Source of the DNA: Candidatus Howiella intestinavium
Lineage (GTDB): Bacteria; Bacillota; Clostridia; Oscillospirales; Acutalibacteraceae
Direction: 5' to 3'
Length of the DNA stretch: 64,000 nt
NCBI GenBank assembly: GCA_904420585.1
Contig: CAJFVX010000024.1
Location: 1-64,000, forward strand
Part shown: in pieces, positions 35,648 through 64,000 of the stretch
How positions within the stretch are numbered: position 1 is the first letter of the stretch
How the letters are laid out: the number at the start of each line of letters is the position of its first letter
Made by a program: the position numbers and the translations under genes
The notes under the pieces: model-generated
Database searches by the model: none
What the model saw: the letters and a program-made list of their open reading frames with translations, nothing else
Told to the model about the DNA's origin: nothing

Positions 35648-35745
35648 ACCTCATCTTCCGGATATACCGCAGGATTTGGCACCTTGGCAAACGCCAGGTT
35701 GCCGGGCATCGCAGGGCCTGTTCCCTCCGCCGCTCTTGATAAGGA
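35648..35745 (-). promoter_or_regulatory. SAM-I (S-box) riboswitch upstream of metK
   Basis: Minus strand CTTATCAAGAGCGGCGGAGGGAACAGGCCCTGCGATGCCCGGCAACCTGGCG...AAGGTGCCAAATCCTGC...GGAAGATGAGG. Confidence 0.93.
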
Positions 35746-36525: not shown

Positions 36526-36664
36526 GCGCGCCTTCTTCCATCCGGACTGTAACCGTCGGCTCCGGAATCACACCGGAATCAGCTGTGCAATACACAGGTC
36601 GCGGGCTCGCCGGCCAAGGCCGGATTACCGCCGGTGGGGAATTGCACCCCGCCCCGAAGACAGC
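36526..36664 (-). promoter_or_regulatory. FMN (RFN) riboswitch
   Basis: Minus strand CTTCGGGGCGGGGTGCAATTCCCCACCGGCGGTAAT...GAGCCCGCGA...CAGCTGATTCCGGTGTGATTCCGGAGCCGACGGTTACAGTCCGGATGGAAGAAG. Confidence 0.95.
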
Positions 36665-36736
36665 AATAAATTTGTTATTATAATATGCCCATCCGACCGG
36701 TTTGTCAAGAGGCCGCCGGCGATAAATTGAAAAAGG

Positions 36737-49584: not shown

Positions 49585-49624
49585 ATTATAATGGCGCAAG
49601 CCATTGGAAATAGGAGGAAACAGC

Positions 49625-49846
49625 ATGAAGACGTTGAGGCAGGTAAAGGTAGGCGATACGGTCCGGGTGGTGAAGCTCCACGGGGAAGGCGCGGTCAAGC
49701 GCCGGATCATGGATATGGGCATCACCAAGGGCGTAGAGGTGTTTGTGCGCAAGGTGGCGCCGCTGGGGGATCCGGTAGAGGTCACCGTCCGGGGTTATGA
49801 GCTCTCCCTGCGCAAGGCCGACGCGGAGATGATCGAGGTCGCCTAG
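49625..49846 (+). CDS. feoA: Second FeoA protein
   Basis: MKTLRQVKVGDTVRVVKLHGEGAVKRRIMDMGITKGVEVFVRKVAPLGDPVEVTVRGYELSLRKADAEMIEV. Confidence 0.92.
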   Translation: MKTLRQVKVGDTVRVVKLHGEGAVKRRIMDMGITKGVEVFVRKVAPLGDPVEVTVRGYELSLRKADAEMIEVA

Positions 49847-49891
49847 AGCGCCCCGCGGGGCTCCCGATACCGGAGAGATCCCGGCCAATAG

Positions 49892-49907
49892 GTTAGTTTA
49901 AACTAAT
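49892..49907. promoter_or_regulatory. Fourth TTAG-N6-CTAA palindrome, upstream of feoB
   Basis: TTAGTTTAAACTAA, perfect palindrome. Confidence 0.6.
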
Positions 49908-49931
49908 TTCTGCTTGAAAGGAAGAAAGAGG

Positions 49932-52343
49932 ATGAACATTCGAATCGCCCTTGCGGGCAACCCGAACAGCGGTAAAACCACTCTGTTCAACGCGCTGACC
50001 GGTTCCAACCAGTTTGTGGGGAACTGGCCGGGCGTCACGGTGGAAAAAAAGGAAGGCAAGCTGAAAAAGCACAGCGACGTGACCATCATGGACCTTCCGG
50101 GCATTTATTCCCTGTCCCCCTACACGCTGGAAGAGGTTGTGGCGAGAAACTATCTGATTGACGACCGGCCGGACGCCATCCTGAACATTGTGGACGGCAC
50201 CAATCTGGAGCGCAACCTGTATCTCACCACCCAGCTGACCGAGCTGGGCATCCCGGTGGTGGTTGCGGTCAACATGATGGATGTGGTGAAGAAAAACGGG
50301 GACAAGATCAATATCGCCGAACTGTCCCGGCAGCTGGGCTGTAAGGTAGTGGAAATTTCGGCCCTGAAGGGCACCGGCATCATGGAGGCGGCCGAAGCGG
50401 CCGTGGAGGCCGCCGAGGGTACCAAGACGGTGCCCATGCACAGCTTCAGCGGCGTGGTGGAGCACGCCCTGGCCCACATTGAGGAGGCCGCCGTGCACAA
50501 CATGCCCGCCGAGCAGCAGCGGTGGTACGCCATCAAGATTTTCGAGCGGGATGAAAAGGTGCTGGAACGGCTGAAGCTGGATAAGAACGTCCTTGCCCAC
50601 ATCGGGGAGGACATCAAGGCGGCCGAGGCCGAGATGGACGACGACGCCGAAAGCATCATCACCAACGAGCGGTATGTCTACATAGCCTCCATCATCAAGG
50701 GCTGCTATAAGAAAAAGAACGCCGGCCAGCTTTCCATCTCGGATAAAATCGACAAGGTGGTGACCAACCGCTGGGCGGCCCTGCCCATCTTCGCGGTGGT
50801 CATGTTTATCGTCTACTATGTCTCGGTGACCACGGTGGGCACCTGGGCCACCGACTGGGCCAACGACGGGGTGTTCGGCGACGGCTGGCACCTGTTCGGC
50901 ATCGGCTCTTCCTCCTACAGCGAGGCGGCCGACGCCTATGTGGAGCCCGGGGCCATGGTGGAAGCCTTTGAGGCGGCGGCCGCCGAGGCCGGCCTGGATC
51001 CGGCCGAAGCTGCCGACCTTACCACCACCGCCTACCTCTACGATGACAACGGGAATGTGGAAGAAGAAATCCCCGTGGACTTTGCCGCCTATGAGGAAGC
51101 GGCGGCCATCGAAGAGCCTGACCCGGCTGATTACGGCGTCTGGGTGCCCGGCATCCCCGTCCTGGTGGGGAACGGGCTGAACGCCATCAACTGCGCCGAC
51201 TGGCTGCAGGGCCTCATCCTGGACGGTATCGTGGCCGGCGTGGGCGCCGTGCTGGGCTTTGTGCCCCAGATGCTGGTGCTCTTCCTCTTTCTGGCTTTCC
51301 TGGAAAGCTGCGGCTATATGGCCCGTATCGCCTTTGTCATGGACCGGATTTTCCGCAAGTTCGGCCTGTCGGGCAAATCCTTCATCCCCATGCTCATCGG
51401 TACCGGCTGCGGGGTGCCGGGCATCATGGCGTCGCGTACCATTGAAAACGACCGCGACCGCAAGATGACCATTATGACCACAACCTTCAGTCCCTGCGGC
51501 GCTAAGCTGCCCATTATCGCCCTGATAGCCGGCGCCCTCTTCGGCGGCGCCTGGTGGGTGGCCCCCAGCGCCTACTTTGTGGGCATTGCGGCCATCGTCA
51601 TCTCGGGTATCATGCTTAAAAAGACCCGCATGTTCGCCGGCGACCCGGCTCCCTTTGTCATGGAGCTGCCGGCCTACCACCTGCCCACCGTGGGCAACCT
51701 GCTCCGCTCCATGTGGGAGCGCGGCTGGTCCTTTATCAAGAAGGCCGGTACGGTTATCCTGCTGGCCACCATCTTAGTCTGGTTCACCTCCTCCTTCGGC
51801 TGGGCCGACGGCAGGTTTGGCATGGTGGACATGAACGACAGCATCCTGGCCATTGTGGGCAACGCCATCGCCTGGATCTTCGCGCCTCTGGGGTGGGGCA
51901 ACTGGCAGTCGGCCGTGGCCTGCGTCACCGGCCTTATCGCCAAGGAGAACGTGGTCGGCACCTTCGGCGTACTCTTCGGCGGCTTCGAGGAGGTTGCCGA
52001 AAACGGCTGGCAGGTCTGGGCCAATATGCGGGAAGCCTTCACGCCTCTGTCGGCCTACTCCTTCTTGGTCTTCAACCTGCTCTGCGCCCCCTGCTTCGCG
52101 GCCATCGGCGCCATCAAGCGGGAGATGAACTCGGCCAAGTGGACCTTCTTCGCCATCGGCTACCAGTGCGTATTCGCCTACGCCGCAGCCCTGGTTATCT
52201 ACCAGCTGGGCTCCCTCTTTACGGGTACCGGCAGCGTCATTGGCTCCATTGCAGCCTTCCTGATTGTGGCCTTTATCCTCTTCATGCTCTTCCGGCCCTA
52301 TAAGGAGAGCGGCAGCGTCCTGGGAGCCAAGGTTCGCGTCTAG
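49932..52343 (+). CDS. feoB: Ferrous iron transport GTPase FeoB
   Basis: ALAGNPNSGKTTLFNALTGSNQFVGNWPGVTVEKKEG...DLPGIYSLSPYT; Gate motifs GTGCGVPGIMASRTIEN. Confidence 0.96.
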   Translation: MNIRIALAGNPNSGKTTLFNALTGSNQFVGNWPGVTVEKKEGKLKKHSDVTIMDLPGIYSLSPYTLEEVVARNYLIDDRPDAILNIVDGTNLERNLYLTTQLTELGIPVVVAVNMMDVVKKNGDKINIAELSRQLGCKVVEISALKGTGIMEAAEAAVEAAEGTKTVPMHSFSGVVEHALAHIEEAAVHNMPAEQQRWYAIKIFERDEKVLERLKLDKNVLAHIGEDIKAAEAEMDDDAESIITNERYVYIASIIKGCYKKKNAGQLSISDKIDKVVTNRWAALPIFAVVMFIVYYVSVTTVGTWATDWANDGVFGDGWHLFGIGSSSYSEAADAYVEPGAMVEAFEAAAAEAGLDPAEAADLTTTAYLYDDNGNVEEEIPVDFAAYEEAAAIEEPDPADYGVWVPGIPVLVGNGLNAINCADWLQGLILDGIVAGVGAVLGFVPQMLVLFLFLAFLESCGYMARIAFVMDRIFRKFGLSGKSFIPMLIGTGCGVPGIMASRTIENDRDRKMTIMTTTFSPCGAKLPIIALIAGALFGGAWWVAPSAYFVGIAAIVISGIMLKKTRMFAGDPAPFVMELPAYHLPTVGNLLRSMWERGWSFIKKAGTVILLATILVWFTSSFGWADGRFGMVDMNDSILAIVGNAIAWIFAPLGWGNWQSAVACVTGLIAKENVVGTFGVLFGGFEEVAENGWQVWANMREAFTPLSAYSFLVFNLLCAPCFAAIGAIKREMNSAKWTFFAIGYQCVFAYAAALVIYQLGSLFTGTGSVIGSIAAFLIVAFILFMLFRPYKESGSVLGAKVRV

Positions 52344-53922: not shown

Positions 53923-55495
53923 AGCCTTTCGGATTTCCTTTGCCCTCAAAAATACCTACCGGGTCAACAGCATTCTCTACTCCCTCAAGCAGATACCTCT
54001 GGTTAAGCACCTGCTGCCCGACGCCTTGTATAAAAGCCGCGGCTTGAAGATTTTTGGAAATGTGCTGTCGGGGATATGGGAGGTGCTGTCCGCTTTTATC
54101 GGCAAGGCGCTCTATCTTTTCCTGATGGTGGCGGGCATCGGCGTGCTGTACGAACAGGCGCCGGCCGACGGAGTCTTTCTGCACATCTTGTTTTTCCTGA
54201 CCCTCATCGGGGCCTTTATGAATACCTATATGTTCAACCCCACCAACGATAAATACTACGCCATGATTCTCATGCGCATGGACGCGCGGGCGTATACCCT
54301 GTCCAACTATGCCTACACCATGGGAAAGACCCTTATCGGCTTTCTGCCCTTTACGATGCTTGTGGGCTGGCTGCGGGGCGTGCCTGTCTGGATAGGCCTT
54401 CTGCTGCCCCTTTTTATCGTGGGGACCAAGCTGTTTGCGGCCTGGCTCTTCCTGCTGCGCTACAAGCGCACCGGCAGGTGTACCAACGAGAACCTGCCGC
54501 CCAAGGTCCTCTGGCCCTTGGTGGGTATCCTGCTGGCCGCCGCCTATGTCCTGCCGGCGGTGGGCTGGGTTCTGCCGGTTCCGGCCGTGCTGGCGGCAGC
54601 GGGCCTGCTTACGGCGGCCGGCGTGTACGCGGCGGCGGGGATTGCCCGGTTTGATGCCTACGGGGAAATGTACCGCCTGCTGCTGGCCGAAAAGCGCAGC
54701 GGCCTGGATGTAAACCGCACGGTGGCCAAGGCCGTGGAGGAGCAGAGCCGGAAGGCCATCAGCCAGGAGGCGGGCATCACCAGCGGCCGAAAGGGTTTTG
54801 CCTATTTCAACGATCTGTTTGTCAAGCGGCACAAAAAAATCCTCTGGCGGCCGGCCAAGCGGGTGGCGGCCGTCTGCCTTGCCCTGCTGATAGGGATGCT
54901 GCTTTTGTTCCGCCTGCGGCCGTCGGTGATGGAAAGGACAAATGAGCTGCTGCTCAGCTTCCTGCCCTTTTTCACCTTTGTCATGTACTGCATCAACCGG
55001 GGTACGGCCTTTACCCAGGCCCTCTTTATGAACTGCGACCACAGCATGCTGACCTATTCCTTTTACAAAAAGCCCCGGTTTATCTTAAAGCTGTTCCAAA
55101 TCCGCCTGTGGGAAATCGTGAAAATCAACCTGCTGCCCGCTCTGGTCATCGGCCCAGGGCTTTCGCTTCTGCTGTTTTGCTCGGGCGGCACGGCCAATCC
55201 CCTGTACTATGCGGTTATGCCGGCGGCTGTCCTGTCCATGAGCGTGTTTTTCTCGGTGCACTATCTGACGATATACTATCTTCTGCAGCCCTACAACGCC
55301 GGCACCGAGATGAAAAGCGGCACCTACCGGGTGGTGACGGGGGTCACCTATTTCGTCTGCTTTGCCTTTATGCAGGTGCGGATGGAAACCCTGAGTTTCG
55401 GCCTCATCGCCATCGGCTTCTGCCTTGCCTACTGCCTGGTGGCCTGCCTGCTGGTATACAAGCTGGCCCCCACCACCTTCCGGCTGCGCAGCTGA
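53915..55495 (+). CDS. ABC transporter permease (ABC-2-like, about 12 TM)
   Basis: MLKAFRISFALKNTYRVNSILYSLKQIP...; hydrophobic throughout; overlaps the ATPase gene by 8 nt. Confidence 0.75.
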   Translation: MLKAFRISFALKNTYRVNSILYSLKQIPLVKHLLPDALYKSRGLKIFGNVLSGIWEVLSAFIGKALYLFLMVAGIGVLYEQAPADGVFLHILFFLTLIGAFMNTYMFNPTNDKYYAMILMRMDARAYTLSNYAYTMGKTLIGFLPFTMLVGWLRGVPVWIGLLLPLFIVGTKLFAAWLFLLRYKRTGRCTNENLPPKVLWPLVGILLAAAYVLPAVGWVLPVPAVLAAAGLLTAAGVYAAAGIARFDAYGEMYRLLLAEKRSGLDVNRTVAKAVEEQSRKAISQEAGITSGRKGFAYFNDLFVKRHKKILWRPAKRVAAVCLALLIGMLLLFRLRPSVMERTNELLLSFLPFFTFVMYCINRGTAFTQALFMNCDHSMLTYSFYKKPRFILKLFQIRLWEIVKINLLPALVIGPGLSLLLFCSGGTANPLYYAVMPAAVLSMSVFFSVHYLTIYYLLQPYNAGTEMKSGTYRVVTGVTYFVCFAFMQVRMETLSFGLIAIGFCLAYCLVACLLVYKLAPTTFRLRS

Positions 55496-55537
55496 CCGGC
55501 CGGGAGATATTTCCGGCGGCCGTCTGCAAGGTTTTGG

Positions 55538-55566
55538 TTGACAAAGGCCAGGTAAGATGATATAAT
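55538..55566 (+). promoter_or_regulatory. Sigma-A promoter of the Pel-type operon
   Basis: Consensus TTGACA (55538) - 17 nt - TATAAT (55561). Confidence 0.85.
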
Positions 55567-55574
55567 CATCATAC

Positions 55575-55684
55575 TAAAAAAGTACATAGGAAGCTGAGAA
55601 GGGTACCGTGTATCTGGACGCTTGCGGTATCTGGAGCTAGTAGCGTAACCGGCAAAAAGGAAGACTTTTTTGCCGGTTTTTTTG
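55575..55684 (+). ncRNA. Leader RNA of unknown class ending in an intrinsic terminator
   Basis: Noncoding segment from the promoter to ACCGGCAAAAA...TTTTTTGCCGGTTTTTTT (55647-55688); no class recognised. Confidence 0.4.
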
Positions 55685-55688
55685 TTTT
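55647..55688 (+). terminator. First intrinsic terminator in the leader
   Basis: ACCGGCAAAAAggaagacTTTTTTGCCGGTTTTTTT. Confidence 0.8.
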
Positions 55689-55693
55689 CAACT

Positions 55694-55785
55694 GCATCTG
55701 TTTGGCAAAGCTGGCGAAAGCCAGTGACGCAAAGCGTAGAGGCTACCGCGGCTGTTATCGGCCGCCATGCCCGTCTGGCTGCAAG
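55694..55785 (+). promoter_or_regulatory. c-di-GMP-I (GEMM-I) riboswitch
   Basis: TTTGGCAAAGCTGGCGAAAGCCAGTGACGCAAAGCGTAGAGGCTACCGCGGCTGTTATCGGCCGCCATGCCCGTCTGGCTGC: P2 with GAAA tetraloop, GACGCAAAGC core, RGGCTA and CCATG P3 elements. Confidence 0.85.
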
Positions 55786-55818
55786 AAGGTGGATTTCACC
55801 CTTTTTGCAGCTTTTTTA
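55778..55818 (+). terminator. Terminator (expression platform) after the c-di-GMP aptamer
   Basis: GCTGCAAGAAGGTGgattTCACCCTTTTTGCAGCTTTTTT. Confidence 0.8.
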
Positions 55819-55924
55819 TTTGCCCGCACATCTTCCGGGCGGGCGCATACAATTCAAATGTACCCGCTTGTCCGGCGGCGGCCGGCGCGGGCCCGCATAC
55901 CGAAAGAGAAGGGAAGGGGTTTTT

Positions 55925-56830
55925 ATGAAGAAAAGTTTGTTGGGCTACAACAAGCAGGCGGTGGACGAAACCATAGGGGATCTGGAAATCCGCAACACCC
56001 GGCTGGAGACCCAGCTCAAGCGCCTGCAGGCCGAGCTGGACGCCGCCCGCAAGGAGCTGGAGGCGGAAAGAGAACATCCGGAAGAAAGTGAAGCCGATAC
56101 CGAGGAACTGGAGCAGCTGCGGGCCGAAAACCAGGCGCTGCAGGCTGAGAATCAGGCGCTCCAGGCCGGGAAGGAGCAGCTGCGGCAGGAGCGGGATTCC
56201 CTGGCCCAGCGGCTTCAGGCGGCCGGAAGCGTGACGGCTTCCCGGGATCAGCTGGAACAGGTCACCGGCATCTGCCGGGAGGCCTATGAGGAAATGATGC
56301 ATGCCAAAGAGCAGACTCAGCAGGGCATCAGCGCCTATGTGGGCGCCTTCTGGGAGGAATGGAACGTCTGCCAGGCCCGGATGCTGCAGGCGGCCCAGGA
56401 TATGGAGCGTGCCCGGGATGAGGGCCGTGAGGCTTTCCTGAGCATTGCCGACGAAATTCTGGCCGGTTATGAGAAGCTGACCGAGGCGGACGCCCGGATG
56501 CAGCGGCAGCTGACGGAGATGGAGGAAACCCGTTCCCAGGTGGAGCGGCAGCTGGAGGCAACCATTCGTTCTTTGGACGCGGAAAGGGAAAAACCTGCTG
56601 ACGAGTCAGAGGAAGAGGAGACCGATGGCTATGCCGTTCTGCAGGCCCTGCGCCGCCGGGAAAAGAAAAACCGGCCGGCCGAAGAAGTGGCGGAAGTCAG
56701 CCAAGAGCCGGATACAAAGGAAACGGCCAGCCGGATTATACCGGTCAAGCCGGCGGCCCCTATGGGGGATATCGGCATTGCGGTGGGGATTGACGCCCGC
56801 AATATCATGAGCCGCCGCAAGGGCTCCTGA
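55925..56830 (+). CDS. Coiled-coil protein, DivIVA-like N-terminus, first gene of the Pel-type operon
   Basis: MKKSLLGYNKQAVDETIGDLEIRNTRLETQLKRLQAEL... heptad-rich; overlaps the HD-GYP gene. Confidence 0.75.
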   Translation: MKKSLLGYNKQAVDETIGDLEIRNTRLETQLKRLQAELDAARKELEAEREHPEESEADTEELEQLRAENQALQAENQALQAGKEQLRQERDSLAQRLQAAGSVTASRDQLEQVTGICREAYEEMMHAKEQTQQGISAYVGAFWEEWNVCQARMLQAAQDMERARDEGREAFLSIADEILAGYEKLTEADARMQRQLTEMEETRSQVERQLEATIRSLDAEREKPADESEEEETDGYAVLQALRRREKKNRPAEEVAEVSQEPDTKETASRIIPVKPAAPMGDIGIAVGIDARNIMSRRKGS

Positions 56831-58629
56831 TGATGGATAAGCCGGATGGCCGGACCGCCGCCTTTTCCTCCGGCCGCTATGGGCTGCTGCTGATTCTGCT
56901 GCTGCTCATAGCGGCAGCGGCCGCCTTTCTGCTCCAGCCTATGGGCGTATATACCCGTTCGGCCGGTACGCTGACCGAATGGGAATATACCGCCGGTTCG
57001 GGAGAAAAGGAGCTGGAAACCGCCGGAACCTGGGAGACGGCCGACGCCGCCCATCCGGTGCAGACGGCCGGGAAGGATTGTCTGATCCTTCGGAGAGAGC
57101 TGCCTCCTTCGTCCTGCGACGCCCTTTGGCTGCGGCTTTTTTACGGTTCGGTATCGGTGCGCCTGGATGGGGAAGAGGTGTACGACGGCCTGGTATTTGG
57201 CGGCCCCTTTGCCGCCTTGGGGTATATGGTTCCCATAGAGCCGGCCGACAGAACCCGGACTCTGGAAATAACCGTATACAGCCCCTTGGCCTTTTCCTTC
57301 CACGCCGGTGCCGCACAGGCGGATTCGCTGGCGGAAAAGGGGCGGATGGCCTATGCGGTGCAGTGGATATGGTGCGCTTTGAGCACCGCCCTTTCCTGTA
57401 TCATGTTTATTGTGGCCCGCCGGCGGCCTTCCGGCAGACGGAAGCTGTGCCTTGCGGCCGGCGCGCTGCTGTTGTGCGGTATCCTGTTTGCGGCGGCCCC
57501 ATTGGCCGGCTGGGGGATACTGCCTGCGGCCCTGGGCCTTCGTATAACCCTTTCCGGGCTGACCATGGCTGTTTGGATGGCGATAATGGCCGTGGCATTA
57601 AACCGGATGGAATGGAGTCCGGCGGCCGAAGTGTGGGCAGCGGCCCACTTTGTATACGCCATATGCCTGCTGTGCTGGCCATACACGGTGTTTTTCGACG
57701 CCGTGGCAAAGGCTGGGCTGCTTTTGCAGCTGGGCAGCGCCGTATTTATAACTGTGATGGCCCTGCTGGGAAAATTCCGGCTGGACACGATGGCCGCCGC
57801 GGCCGTAACCCTGCCGCTGGCGGCGGGACTGCTGTACTGGCTCTGCCTGTTCCTGCAGGCGGAGGCCGGCTTCATGTCCTTTTCCCCGGCTGCCCTGCTG
57901 GTGTTCTGTGCTTTCTGCTTTATCCTGTGGGTGCGGCGGATCCGCCGGACGCACAGGCAGCTGCCGGCACAAGATGAGAGTGTTATCCCGGCCGACCTGC
58001 CGGATACCCTGCTTTCGGACGGCTGGGAGACAGAGGCCGGCGCCCGCTTTTTTGCCCTGTTGGACGACCGGTGCGCCGGCCTGGGGCAGCACGCCCTACG
58101 GGTGGCCGACTATACCCGGCTGCTCTGCCGGCAGATGGGCATGGGACAGGAGCAGACGAAAGAAATTGCCGCCGCGGCCCTTTTCCACGACATCGGCAAG
58201 CTGGAAGTAAAGCGGGATACTTTGTACAAGACCGGGCGGCTGACCGCCGAGGAATTTGAGGAAATCCAGCGGCACACCCTGTACGGGTACCGTATGCTGG
58301 AGGGCGGCAGCCGGCCCTTTTCGCAGATGGCCGCCCGCGTAGCCTACGAGCATCACGAGCATGTGGACGGAAGCGGTTATATGGGCCTTGCGGGGGAGGA
58401 CATCAGCCTGCCGGCCCGGATTGTGGCGGTGGCCGATGTGTTCGACGCCCTGACTTCTCCCAGAGGCTATAAACAGGCCTGGAACTTTGAGCAGGCTTTT
58501 GCCTATGTCTGCGAGCAGGGGGGCGGCTACTTTGACAAAGAGGCCGTCCGGGCCTTTTGCAAGGCCCGCCCCCAGCTGCTGGAGGCCTACAGGCGGCATA
58601 AAAGGGAAGAAGACGGGAGTTCGGAGTAA
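56830..58629 (+). CDS. Membrane HD-GYP domain protein (putative c-di-GMP phosphodiesterase) with N-terminal extracellular sensor and multi-TM region
   Basis: ALFHDIGKLEV; YEHHEHVDGSGYMGLAGEDISLPARIVAVADVFDALTSPRGYK. Confidence 0.9.
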   Translation: MMDKPDGRTAAFSSGRYGLLLILLLLIAAAAAFLLQPMGVYTRSAGTLTEWEYTAGSGEKELETAGTWETADAAHPVQTAGKDCLILRRELPPSSCDALWLRLFYGSVSVRLDGEEVYDGLVFGGPFAALGYMVPIEPADRTRTLEITVYSPLAFSFHAGAAQADSLAEKGRMAYAVQWIWCALSTALSCIMFIVARRRPSGRRKLCLAAGALLLCGILFAAAPLAGWGILPAALGLRITLSGLTMAVWMAIMAVALNRMEWSPAAEVWAAAHFVYAICLLCWPYTVFFDAVAKAGLLLQLGSAVFITVMALLGKFRLDTMAAAAVTLPLAAGLLYWLCLFLQAEAGFMSFSPAALLVFCAFCFILWVRRIRRTHRQLPAQDESVIPADLPDTLLSDGWETEAGARFFALLDDRCAGLGQHALRVADYTRLLCRQMGMGQEQTKEIAAAALFHDIGKLEVKRDTLYKTGRLTAEEFEEIQRHTLYGYRMLEGGSRPFSQMAARVAYEHHEHVDGSGYMGLAGEDISLPARIVAVADVFDALTSPRGYKQAWNFEQAFAYVCEQGGGYFDKEAVRAFCKARPQLLEAYRRHKREEDGSSE

Positions 58630-58644
58630 GAAAAGAGGGAACTT

Positions 58645-60744
58645 GTGGATATTTTGGTGACGGGCAGGCTGGCATCCATAACCGGCCAGATAGGCGAAGC
58701 GCTGAAACGGCGGCACAAGGTGGTGTATGCGTCGGACGACCTGGTTTCCGACCGGCTGCCCAAGGGTATAACGCCCTTTTCCCTGGCGCCGGGCAGCCGG
58801 GAATTCGAGCGGATTTTCCATTCCTACCACTTTGACGTGGTTATCTTCTTTGCCCAGCCGGTCTTTGGCGGCGAGGAGTATTACGGGGAATACAAGGATT
58901 TGGAGAACTGCCTGCGCATCTGCGCCGACCGGGATGTGAACCGGTTTATCTATGTCCGCCCGGCCCTCCAGGGGGAGGGGCAGGCGCCGGAGCATGATTT
59001 GAACGTCCTGTTCGCTTCCTGCGATCTGCTCTGCGACTATTACCGCAGACGGCGGGGGATGTCCATCCTCGTCTGCCATACCCCCCTTCTCTATGGAATG
59101 GGAGAGAGCGCCTCCCTGCCGGGCGGGGCCCTGCGGCAGGCCAAGGACAGGGGTTCGGTGCAGTTCCGGGGCGGTGAGAAGGACCGGGTGGGCCTTTTGT
59201 ACCAAGCCGACCTGGGCGAGCTGCTGCTGCGGGTGGCTGAGGACTGGAACCCCGCTCTGACCGAGATGGAAGTGCCGGCCGGGGACGTCCTTTCCTTTCT
59301 GGAACTGGGCGCCCTTTTAAAAATGGAATACCCGGCCCTGCGGTTGTCTTACAAGCCGGCCGGCTACCGGACGGCCGAGGTGCTGACGGGCGAAGTACCC
59401 AAGCGGGAATACGATTGGGTGCCCGTTACCCAATTGACCGACCTGTTGCCCGGGCTTATCCGCGCCCTGGAGGGAGAGCAGGGACAGCGGGCCTCCTTCC
59501 TGCAAAAGTGCAGGGATTTTCTCAAACGGCACAAATTCATTGTCCGGCTGGTGGAACTGATTCTGGGGTTCCTGCTCATGGAGCTGCTCAACCGGGTTAC
59601 GGCCACCACCATCCAGTTTCAATATGTGGATTTCCGGCTGCTGTATATCGTCCTGCTGGGCACCCTCCACGGCATGAAAACAGGTCTGGCTGCAGCGGGT
59701 TTGGCCAGTATATCCCTGCTGGCCTCCATGATTGTCAACCAGCCCAACTGGTATGTCACGGCCTATGATATGGAGAACTGGCTGCCCTTTATCTTTTACT
59801 TTCTCATAGGCGGCGTCACGGGCTATGTCAAGGACCGGCTGCGCAACGACAACCGGTTTTTGTCCGAGGAAAAGGCCCTGCTGGAAGAGCGGTATGTGCT
59901 GCTCAACGAATTTTACATGAGCGCCCTGCAAAACAAAGACCAGTACAAAATGCAGATCATGTCCTATCGGGACAGCTTCGGCCGCCTGTTCGACATCACC
60001 CAGAACCTGGACAGCACCCTGGTGGACGAGGTCTTCAACGAGGCCCTGCATGCGCTGGAGGGCGTGCTGGACAATAAGTCGGTCTGCCTCTACAGCTGTG
60101 ATGAAAAATTGCTCTTCGGCCGTCTGGTGGCCTGTTCCCGGGAGATTCGCAGCACCACCGAAAAGTCGGTCAACCTGTCCAAGCTGGAGAAGATGACGGT
60201 TGATTTTGCAGACGGGGAGGTCTGGGTCAACCGGGAGCGGCTGCTGGGCTACCCCGAGTACGCCGTGCCCATCTACCGGGAGGGAAAACCCATCGCCCTT
60301 ATCTTCCTGTGGAAGGCCAGCTTCGAACAGCTGGCGGTCTACTATGAGAACCTGGTCAAAATCATATGCGGGCTGGTGAAAATGGCCCTGGTCCACGCCC
60401 TGGAATACACCGAGCAGACCGAGAAGGAAATCTATCTGGAGGGCACCCCCATCGTCCGCAACGAGTATTTCTCCCAGATTTTGCAGGTCAAGGAGGAGAT
60501 GGCCCAGGAGGGCACCTCCGAATACAGCCTGATCCAGTTCCATACCACGCCGGAAAACCGGAGCGAGGTGGCCGGGCGGATAGCCCAGGTCATCCGCTCC
60601 ACCGACATCCTGGGCATGGGTTCCGACGGGGAGCTGTATCTCTGCCTGTCCCAGACCAATCAGGACAGCCTGCCGGTGGTGCTGGAGCGGATAAAGGGGA
60701 CCCTTCTGCCCTTCCGGGAGATGCAGAAAGGGGAGGCCATATGA
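58645..60744 (+). CDS. pelD: PelD-like c-di-GMP receptor with N-terminal SDR/epimerase-like domain, TM, GAF-like and degenerate GGDEF (RSTD I-site, SDGEL)
   Basis: N-term MDILVTGRLASITGQIGEAL Rossmann-like; four-TM stretch; GAF-like region; RSTD-ILGMG-SDGEL aligns with RxxD-x5-GGDEF; followed by PelE/PelA/PelF-like genes. Confidence 0.82.
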   Translation: MDILVTGRLASITGQIGEALKRRHKVVYASDDLVSDRLPKGITPFSLAPGSREFERIFHSYHFDVVIFFAQPVFGGEEYYGEYKDLENCLRICADRDVNRFIYVRPALQGEGQAPEHDLNVLFASCDLLCDYYRRRRGMSILVCHTPLLYGMGESASLPGGALRQAKDRGSVQFRGGEKDRVGLLYQADLGELLLRVAEDWNPALTEMEVPAGDVLSFLELGALLKMEYPALRLSYKPAGYRTAEVLTGEVPKREYDWVPVTQLTDLLPGLIRALEGEQGQRASFLQKCRDFLKRHKFIVRLVELILGFLLMELLNRVTATTIQFQYVDFRLLYIVLLGTLHGMKTGLAAAGLASISLLASMIVNQPNWYVTAYDMENWLPFIFYFLIGGVTGYVKDRLRNDNRFLSEEKALLEERYVLLNEFYMSALQNKDQYKMQIMSYRDSFGRLFDITQNLDSTLVDEVFNEALHALEGVLDNKSVCLYSCDEKLLFGRLVACSREIRSTTEKSVNLSKLEKMTVDFADGEVWVNRERLLGYPEYAVPIYREGKPIALIFLWKASFEQLAVYYENLVKIICGLVKMALVHALEYTEQTEKEIYLEGTPIVRNEYFSQILQVKEEMAQEGTSEYSLIQFHTTPENRSEVAGRIAQVIRSTDILGMGSDGELYLCLSQTNQDSLPVVLERIKGTLLPFREMQKGEAI

Positions 60745-61658
60745 CTCTGCGCCTTATTATAATCCTGTATCTCATCCTCCATATCCTGCTCTGCATTCTC
60801 GTATATGTAGGCATCCGCACGCGGGTTTTAAAATTTTCCGAACAGCTTTTTCCCATCATCGCCATGGTGCCGGTGGCCGGCATGGCGGCGGCGGTGGCGG
60901 CCGAGATCATGTCCCGTTTCCGCAAAGGCGGCAAAAAGGAAATGAGCCTGGAGGAGCTGCACATGGCCGAGGACGTGCGGCTGCAGCGTTTGGAGGAGTC
61001 GGAAGGGGACAGCATGGTGGTGCCCCTGGAGGAAGCCCTTTCGGTCAACGACGCCAAGACCCGCCGGCAGCTTATGCTGGAAATCCTGCATCAGAATCCC
61101 GGCGCCTATGTGGAACTTCTCCAGCAGGCCCGCATGGACGACGACATCGAAGTGACCCACTACGCCTCCACGGCCATGATGGAGCTGCAGCGGGATTTTG
61201 AGATAAATCTGCAGCGGGCCGAGCAGGAATATGAAAAGCAGCCCGACCAGCCCGAAAAGCTGGACAGGTGCCTCTACTGCCTGCGAAAATACATCGACAG
61301 CGGGCTGATTGAGGAAAGTATATTGTTCGTCTACCGTACCCGGTACGCCGAACTGCTGCAGAAAAAGCTGGAGCAGGAGCCGGAGAATATGCAGGCCTGC
61401 CAGTACGCAGTGGACAATTACCTGGGCCTTTCCAACTACCGGGAGGCCAAGTTCCTGGCCGACCGGATGCAGAACCGGTGGCCCGACCGGGAGGAAAGCT
61501 GGCTTTCCACCCTGAAGGTCTGCCAGCAGATGAACGACGCCGAAGGCATCCGGCGGGTCCTGCGCAAGGTAAAGCGGGGAAATGTCTATCTGTCCCCGGC
61601 CGGCCGGGAGGCCATCGCATTCTGGGATACCGAGGAAAGGGGGAAGAATCATGAATAA
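60741..61658 (+). CDS. pelE: PelE-like TM/TPR protein
   Basis: Two N-terminal TMs then helical TPR-type repeats; position between pelD and pelA-like genes. Confidence 0.75.
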   Translation: MTLRLIIILYLILHILLCILVYVGIRTRVLKFSEQLFPIIAMVPVAGMAAAVAAEIMSRFRKGGKKEMSLEELHMAEDVRLQRLEESEGDSMVVPLEEALSVNDAKTRRQLMLEILHQNPGAYVELLQQARMDDDIEVTHYASTAMMELQRDFEINLQRAEQEYEKQPDQPEKLDRCLYCLRKYIDSGLIEESILFVYRTRYAELLQKKLEQEPENMQACQYAVDNYLGLSNYREAKFLADRMQNRWPDREESWLSTLKVCQQMNDAEGIRRVLRKVKRGNVYLSPAGREAIAFWDTEERGKNHE

Positions 61659-63498
61659 GGGCGTCTTTAAGAAATTTGTGATCACCTGCGTGACCATGGT
61701 GGTGCTGGCCGCCCTTTCGGTTGTGCTGCTTGCCGACTATATGGGCATCAGCTATTCGGTGGCCCCCTTCCAGCTGACCGACCTGCCCGAATCGGCCCTT
61801 TCCCAGAAGGAGGAGCGGGAAAATGCGGAGGCCTCCTGCCTGGTTCTGCGGGACAGTTCCCAGGAAAACAACGATATTTTCACCGGGCATGTGGAGGAAG
61901 TCCTCCAGCAAATGCGGGTGGGGTATGATATAACCGACCTGGCCGGCGAATCCGTGCCGGATTTTTCCGCCTACTCCACCTGTATCGTGGTCTTCCAGCA
62001 TCTGGACGTCATGGGCCAGTCCATTGTGGACATGTGCAACTGGGTGGAACAAAACGGCGGCCGGGTGCTCATCTTCTGTTCTTCGGACGCCTCCCCGGCC
62101 TACCGGTATCTGTGCCCCTATATCGGCGTGGAGGAGGGCGGCCGGGCCTATTCCTCGGTAAACGGCATGTACCTTTCGGACGATTTCATGATAGGCTCCG
62201 AGGGCTTCCAGTTCCACTGGGATGAGCCCATGTCCACGGCCATCAACATCCGGCTGAATGATGGGGCTAAGGTCTACGCCTGGTCGGACGATGAGAGCCG
62301 GCTGCCCCTGGTCTGGTCCAACGATGTGGGCAGCGGCCGGTTCGTGGTCATGAATATCGGCCTGAGCGAGAAGACCACCCGGGGCTTTACCTGCGCCTGC
62401 TACAGCCTGCTGGAGGATACCTGTGTCTATCCGGTTATCAACGCTTCCTCCTTTTTTCTGGACGACTTCCCCTCGCCGGTTCCCATGGGAGACGGCCAGT
62501 ATATCCGCCAGACCTACAACCGGGATATCTCCAGCTTTTATTCCAATGTCTGGTGGCCGGATATGCTCCAGTTCTGCGACGACTACGGGGTGAAATACAC
62601 CGGTGTGGTCATCGAAACCTACGAGGAGGAAGTGGACGGCTCCTTCCCGAGGCAGCAGGAGCTGGAACGGTTTGAGCATTTCGGCGCGCTGCTGCTGGGT
62701 CACGGCGGGGAAATCGGTCTGCACGGCTATAACCACCTGCCCCTCTGCTTTAACGGTTTTGATTTTAAGGGAGAGGTGGACTACGAAACCTGGAACCGAC
62801 GGGAGGACGTCATCACCGCCGTGCAGGAACTTATCGACTTCACCTCCATGCTTTTTCCGGAAAACCAGCCGTCGGTCTATGTGCCGCCCTCCAACATCCT
62901 CTCGGAAGAGGGCCGGGCGCTTCTCAAGGAGGAATTTCCCCAGATTAAAACCATCAGCAGCGTTTATCTTTATGTGGATGGCCAGATTGAATACACCCAG
63001 GAGTTTGAGGTGGCCGAGGACGGCATCGTGGAATTCCCCCGGGTCATATCCGGCGCCCTGCTGGACCAGTACATGTATTGGGCGGCCATCAACACCCTGA
63101 ATATGTACTATGTCAACTCCCACTTCATCCATCCCGACGACGTGCTGGACGAAGACCGGGGCGCGGCCCTGGGCTGGGAGCAGCTCCACGAGAACCTGGG
63201 GAATTACATGGACTGGCTGTACACCTCCGCCCCCAACATCCGCAACCTGGTGGCCAGCGATTCGGCCCGGGCGGTGCAGCGGTACGACGCCCTTTCGGTG
63301 GAACGGTCCGACGACGAGGATGGGATCCATCTGCGGCTGACCGGCTTCTGGGATGAGGCCTACCTGATGGTGCGCTGCAACAAGGGAAAGCCGGGCCAGG
63401 TGGCCGGCGGTACCATCGAGCACATCGCGGGGGATTATTACCTTTTGCGGGCCACCGAAGCCCAGGTGGACATTTCCATAGAGGGGGAGACGGCATGA
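61651..63498 (+). CDS. pelA: PelA-type polysaccharide deacetylase (DUF2194), no hydrolase domain
   Basis: N-terminal TM; SSFFLDDFPSPVP and GEIGLHGYNHLPL (D/HxxxH deacetylase motifs). Confidence 0.82.
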   Translation: MNKGVFKKFVITCVTMVVLAALSVVLLADYMGISYSVAPFQLTDLPESALSQKEERENAEASCLVLRDSSQENNDIFTGHVEEVLQQMRVGYDITDLAGESVPDFSAYSTCIVVFQHLDVMGQSIVDMCNWVEQNGGRVLIFCSSDASPAYRYLCPYIGVEEGGRAYSSVNGMYLSDDFMIGSEGFQFHWDEPMSTAINIRLNDGAKVYAWSDDESRLPLVWSNDVGSGRFVVMNIGLSEKTTRGFTCACYSLLEDTCVYPVINASSFFLDDFPSPVPMGDGQYIRQTYNRDISSFYSNVWWPDMLQFCDDYGVKYTGVVIETYEEEVDGSFPRQQELERFEHFGALLLGHGGEIGLHGYNHLPLCFNGFDFKGEVDYETWNRREDVITAVQELIDFTSMLFPENQPSVYVPPSNILSEEGRALLKEEFPQIKTISSVYLYVDGQIEYTQEFEVAEDGIVEFPRVISGALLDQYMYWAAINTLNMYYVNSHFIHPDDVLDEDRGAALGWEQLHENLGNYMDWLYTSAPNIRNLVASDSARAVQRYDALSVERSDDEDGIHLRLTGFWDEAYLMVRCNKGKPGQVAGGTIEHIAGDYYLLRATEAQVDISIEGETA

Positions 63499-64000
63499 GG
63501 GTCTGCATGGTTCTGGAGGGATGCTATCCTTACGTCCGCGGCGGTGTATCCACCTGGACCCACTCCCTCATCACCTCCAACCCCCAGCACGAATACGTCC
63601 TCTGGCTCATCGGAGCCAAGGCGGAGGACAGGGGGAACTTCAAGTATGAAATACCGAAGAACGTGGTGGAAATCCATGAAATCTTTCTGGACGACGCCCT
63701 GCGCCTGCGGGGCAGCGCCCGGGACCGGTTTCACTTTAACCGGCAGCAGACGGCGGCTTTAAAAGAGCTGATACTCTGCGGCCGGCCGGACTGGGAAACC
63801 CTTTTTGACCTGTATCATACAAAGCGGGTCAGCGCCCTGTCCTTTCTCATGAGCGAGGATTTTTTGAAAATCCTCATCGAGGTCTGTGAGGAAAAGTACC
63901 CTTACATCTCCTTTGCCGACTTTTTCCACAGCATCCGCTCCATGTTCCTGCCTATACTCTACCTGCTGGGGCAGGAGGCGCCCGAGGCGGATGTCTACCA
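63495..64000 (+). CDS. pelF: PelF-like glycosyltransferase (truncated by window end)
   Basis: MRVCMVLEGCYPYVRGGVSTWTHSLITSNPQHEYVLWLIGAK...; ATGA overlap with the upstream gene; open to the window edge. Confidence 0.88.
   Translation, partial: MRVCMVLEGCYPYVRGGVSTWTHSLITSNPQHEYVLWLIGAKAEDRGNFKYEIPKNVVEIHEIFLDDALRLRGSARDRFHFNRQQTAALKELILCGRPDWETLFDLYHTKRVSALSFLMSEDFLKILIEVCEEKYPYISFADFFHSIRSMFLPILYLLGQEAPEADVY

Follow-up and report, generated by a model that had tools for sequence, protein, structure and literature searches.

A predicted tandem of class II and class I c-di-GMP riboswitches upstream of the pel operon of Candidatus Howiella intestinavium

We analyzed a stretch of 64,000 nucleotides from Candidatus Howiella intestinavium (assembly GCA_904420585.1, contig CAJFVX010000024.1, positions 1-64,000 of the forward strand), hereafter called the window. 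Its forward strand carries a pel exopolysaccharide operon whose first gene (55925-56830) encodes a coiled-coil protein with a DivIVA-like N-terminus and is the conserved first gene in nine related pel operons. The second gene (56830-58629) encodes an HD-domain (HD-GYP-like) protein (PF13487, E 5e-35) that is found in 12 of 12 related operons. This protein is a putative c-di-GMP phosphodiesterase of uncertain activity, with the motif HHEHVDGSGYM in which GYM replaces GYP. PelD follows (58645-60744) and, by comparison with the literature, comprises degenerate SDR, GAF and degenerate GGDEF domains. Its RxxD residues (R651 and D654) are invariant across eight PelD homologues, and the RxxD motif of Bacillus cereus PelD binds c-di-GMP with a KD of 103 nM (PMC7112168). 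Next come a PelE-like protein (60741-61658), with a syntenic homologue in 12 of 12 related operons, a PelA-type deacetylase (61651-63498; DUF2194, PF09960, E 1e-161), and the start of pelF (63495-64000; NF038011 PelF, 340 bits), which runs beyond the window and is followed by pelG (PF16933 PelG, 429 bits).

The operon is thus intact on the contig through pelG in the order pelD-pelE-pelA(DA)-pelF-pelG, and synteny holds in 12 related loci. It shares pelD with RxxD, pelE, the pelA deacetylase, pelF and pelG with the Gram-positive operon pelDEADAFG (PMC7112168), but differs in beginning with the coiled-coil and HD-domain genes. These assignments support an initial annotation of the region, made from the sequence, which had proposed riboswitch control of EPS genes. 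The genome encodes three GGDEF and two HD_5 proteins. The window also contains an FMN riboswitch (36526-36665, reverse strand) before a 187-amino-acid membrane protein that looks RibU-like by eye and a SAM riboswitch (35648-35745, reverse strand) before a 394-amino-acid MetK-like protein, both ordinary. At 49604-52343, a small FeoA-like open reading frame precedes a large one for a FeoB-like GTPase/transporter, as judged by eye from the translations.

Immediately upstream of the pel operon, the initial annotation had placed a c-di-GMP-I (GEMM-I) riboswitch at 55694-55818. The corresponding Rfam model, RF01051, has a single match in the window, at 55694-55786 on the forward strand. This match spans the full length of the model (positions 1-87). 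Its score of 59.6 bits exceeds the gathering score of 35, with an E value of 3.9e-9 across the entire window, and confirms the class assignment. The ligand-contact segments GGCAAA, CGCAAAG and GCUGC are present at aligned positions. The G preceding GCAAA, the A of CGCAAAG and the C of GCUGC, which we take to be G20, A47 and C92 in Vc2 numbering, fit c-di-GMP rather than cGAMP as the predicted ligand. Within the aptamer, GCU at 55778-55780 pairs with AGC at 55733-55735, and the GC that follows includes the ligand-contact C. The region 55690-55822 folds with a z score of -3.5 relative to shuffled sequences. A possible P1 stem (55697-55704 with 55783-55790) was spotted by eye; its conservation is not shown, and we make no claim for it. 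Taken alone, the element is a new but ordinary class I switch.

An intrinsic terminator (terminator 2; 55778-55811, U-tract 55812-55821, forward strand, -19.7 kcal/mol) overlaps the 3′ edge of this aptamer, as had been proposed from the sequence. Its first five bases, GCUGC (55778-55782), are the 3′ strand of the aptamer together with the ligand-contact C. Formation of the aptamer pairs costs the terminator its five base-proximal pairs. What remains without GCUGC is a hairpin of about -5.6 kcal/mol detached from the U-tract. Every one of the 13 class I aptamers in 12 related pel leaders, the window counted among them, shows the same overlap. In each, the terminator opens with the aptamer's GGCUGC or GGUUGC and ends with the complementary sequence; the remainder of the hairpin varies freely. 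Because the overlap recurs so consistently, the ON polarity suggested earlier for the class I switch is well supported, with this conserved feature as the best evidence for the predicted switching.

A permissive Rfam scan of positions 55480-55950 (471 bases) reveals an additional element that the initial annotation had missed. A c-di-GMP-II aptamer matches RF01786 at 55590-55653 on the forward strand with 52.1 bits (E 9.6e-11), which is 1.4 bits under the gathering score of 53.5 and covers model positions 11-74 only. A TPP or HMP-PP switch had been considered as the upstream element and was dropped on the class II match; weak matches to mir-5984, snoRNA and PhrS models in the same scan are attributable to chance. 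From the class, the order and a sister genome we gathered 74 further class II sites and aligned the window's sequence with them. Among these 75 sequences, the window shows zero departures from the columns conserved at 85% or more, and all of its 16 pairs (11 helical and five in the pseudoknot) are standard. The pseudoknot joins ACGCU at 55618-55622 to AGCGU at 55642-55646. Its positions are paired in 72-75 of the 75 sequences, with both-sided changes (GC/AT, AT/GC and TA/CG), and for four of the five the covariation is stronger than in any shuffle. The variant ACGC/GCGU occurs at other class II sites as well. Because the structure line of RF01786 leaves both pseudoknot strands unpaired, this covariation provides largely independent support for the assignment. 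The closing stem P1 is where the assignment is weakest: it is degenerate, with only two of its first four pairs formed. This places it among the eight weakest of the 75, the other seven sites being equally weak. The two aptamers of the pel leader are the only RF01051 and RF01786 matches in the genome, whose assembly is 83% complete.

The class II aptamer is followed by its own terminator (terminator 1; 55647-55678, U-tract to 55689, forward strand), a perfect 14-base-pair hairpin of -18.9 kcal/mol. The aptamer's conserved 3′ end, AACCGGC, forms the 5′ arm of this hairpin. The sole good promoter before the operon lies upstream of both aptamers at 55538-55566 (forward strand), where TTGACA and TATAAT with a 17-base spacer match the consensus at 12 of 12 positions and are accompanied by an extended TG. 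Between this promoter and the class I aptamer, no promoter-like site scores above 7 of 12.

In place of the weak P1, a more distant stem may help to switch terminator 1. The candidate antiterminator strand AAAAAAGU (55576-55583, forward strand) is the complement of ACUUUUUU (55664-55671) in the terminator 3′ arm, and the resulting eight-base-pair stem could replace P1 and sequester that arm. This we offer as a lead only, given that 123 of 5,000 shuffles of the leader reach as many Watson-Crick pairs. Even with the class II core enforced, folding still favors terminator 1 (-34.9 kcal/mol, versus -20.8 kcal/mol for the core plus antiterminator). Readthrough would therefore depend on ligand, pseudoknot and co-transcriptional timing, which are absent from the folding model.

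To place this leader among its relatives, we used a scan of genome contigs with a PelD profile, which yielded 80 loci, and compared the nearest operons that share the gene order. In these operons a class I aptamer precedes the first gene, and no class II aptamer was seen in their leaders. One homologous pel operon is preceded by a class I/class I tandem in which each aptamer has a terminator (L124:207-440), which is a second, independent doubling of the gate. A DNA search in 60 relatives found the class II half alone, in a sister species (G001), where a homologous promoter, class II aptamer and terminator are located elsewhere without a class I aptamer. That copy (L012:8477-8560, reverse strand) lies before a convergent mutS2 with no open reading frame of at least 150 amino acids behind it, and may represent an orphan leader or a small RNA. 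A lone class II unit with the same terminator design, AACCGGCC...GGCCGGUU, occurs in a further genus of the family (L201, G1056). These distributions are most simply explained if an ancestral class I leader acquired a class II module, perhaps together with its promoter, on its upstream side.

Class II aptamers are uncommon in this lineage: 4 of 396 genomes of the order and 4 of 348 of the family have at least one, compared with 51 of 388 of the class. The II-to-I arrangement with two terminators is seen in one genome only, a draft assembly. A strict II-to-I pattern with a gap of 34-64 bases gave zero matches in about 85,000 genomes, a set that may omit the window's own genome, and this gap misses looser pairs such as that at L221. 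A relaxed II-to-I pattern likewise gave zero matches in viral contigs, and none were found when gaps of 60-90 bases were allowed across 143 genomes from a family rich in class II. For the roughly 84 class II sites from the class draw, a core-pattern rather than model-based search found a same-strand tandem with class I at one other locus, L043, in the order class I-GGC, II, II. Three more mixtures occur in the same family, another clostridial family that includes genome G728: L203 (I-GGC, II, II), L204 (I, II) and L221 (II, with I about 140 bases further along). All four precede surface-type genes. At L203 and L204, the ribosome-binding site can be paired by the strand that comes after class II, which suggests translational, bi-mechanism platforms unlike those of the window.

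The identity, polarity and target proposed for the class I element in the initial annotation are supported, but the class II aptamer and terminator at 55590-55689 come first. A transcript must first pass this unit, and class I is therefore the second of two gates rather than a stand-alone switch. Computation establishes which parts are present, how they are ordered and overlap, and the operon behind them, with two complete aptamer-plus-platform units for one ligand behind a single promoter and presumably on one transcript. Binding of the ligand, switch polarity, action in series in vivo and the feedback are inferred from sequence, and we consider it likely that a tandem of two structurally unrelated c-di-GMP ON riboswitches controls the pel operon. 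With somewhat less confidence, we favor the fuller reading of a heteroclass double gate, in which non-homologous aptamers act in series with two terminators and the class II module was inserted before the ancestral class I leader.

In the proposed mechanism, RNA polymerase would start at the 55538-55566 promoter and produce the class II aptamer first. Without ligand, AACCGGC would be captured by terminator 1 and transcription would stop near 55680-55689. With c-di-GMP bound, the pseudoknotted aptamer would hold AACCGGC such that terminator 1 could not close. The class I aptamer would be made next, with GCUGC captured by terminator 2 in the absence of ligand or retained in the aptamer in its presence, allowing transcription to proceed into pel. 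Thus, pel transcription probably needs signal bound at both sensors. Because two serial ON gates would multiply their readthrough probabilities, the OFF state should be tighter and the response somewhat steeper; for two equal hyperbolic gates, simple arithmetic gives a 40-fold rather than an 81-fold range between 10% and 90% response. The HD-domain protein of the operon could feed back by degrading c-di-GMP, and PelD would contribute post-translational control.

Several other readings of the leader can be weighed against this double gate. It is doubtful, though deserving of some weight, that only the class I switch works and that class II is a decaying remnant, with terminator 1 acting as a constant attenuator or being mostly read through. 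The degenerate P1, the score under the gathering cut-off and the closely related pel leaders that manage without class II all agree with decay. However, weak P1 stems recur at seven other class II sites, a candidate replacement exists in AAAAAAGU and ACUUUUUU, and every other conserved class II position is kept, including the covarying pseudoknot. Terminator 1 is moreover a perfect 14-base-pair hairpin, and an intact terminator beside a decaying aptamer would tend to silence the operon.

It is less probable still that the leader comprises two separate units, with class II yielding a short terminated RNA and the class I/pel unit starting from another promoter. The sister species offers a precedent in its promoter, class II aptamer and terminator with neither a class I aptamer nor a clear gene behind them. 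In the window, however, terminator 1 and the class I core are only about 25 bases apart, without a promoter-like site above 7 of 12 between them. The sigma-A-type promoter of related class I leaders sits just upstream of the aptamer, a place that the class II module fills here. Least probable, and in our view highly unlikely, is that ligand favors termination at the class I switch. Both polarities are known among class I switches, and four of the seven genes behind class I switches in C. difficile fall with c-di-GMP (PMC6200980). Terminator 2, however, is built from the aptamer's own basal strand and a contact nucleotide, which would make binding and termination mutually exclusive, and a separate antiterminator/anti-antiterminator pair was not seen in the folds made. 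For class II, all four C. difficile switches are activating (PMC6200980), as the double gate proposes for the window.

The predicted double gate both resembles and departs from known systems. Tandem c-di-GMP-I riboswitches such as Bc3-5 of Bacillus thuringiensis (PMC4759541; PMC9481103) likewise arrange complete aptamer-plus-platform units for a single ligand one after another, and digital, pseudo-cooperative control would be expected in both cases. The aptamers of the window, however, belong to non-homologous classes, II then I, and therefore did not arise by duplication. Tandem c-di-GMP-II arrangements (PMC9481103) share a class II unit serially placed before a surface or matrix gene, but the second unit in the window is class I. 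The SAM-II/SAM-V and SAM-II/SAM-I-IV tandems (PMC9481103) likewise combine, in one leader, aptamers of two classes that differ in structure but share a ligand. The window differs in its ligand and in that both platforms look like terminators with ON polarity, whereas SAM-II/SAM-V combines a terminator with translation control. The 2022 survey counts 347 c-di-GMP-I and 59 c-di-GMP-II doublets, and the text and tables consulted include I/I, II/II and mixed SAM tandems and no class I/II c-di-GMP tandem (PMC9481103). A 2025 survey pools riboswitch classes by ligand (PMC12452182). For the pel operon itself, the earlier description places c-di-GMP control at PelD and leaves riboswitches unmentioned (PMC7112168), whereas the window adds two predicted transcriptional gates in the leader RNA.

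The interest of the locus thus lies in the predicted class II/class I double gate. Same-ligand tandem riboswitches are mostly of the same class; an unrelated pair would indicate that a digital gate can be built by selection out of non-homologous components, and would separate the benefit of two gates from the ease of duplication. If the reading is true, the two checks are free to differ in affinity, kinetics and fold, and a false ON state would require that both fail independently. The leader is also a natural construct for comparing class I and class II sensing within one RNA. Mixtures at L203, L204, L043 and L221, from a different family and with another platform, suggest that the arrangement may be a recurrent, overlooked type. 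For the Gram-positive pel operon, where control by c-di-GMP was previously described at PelD, this leader would add control by the same signal at the level of transcription.
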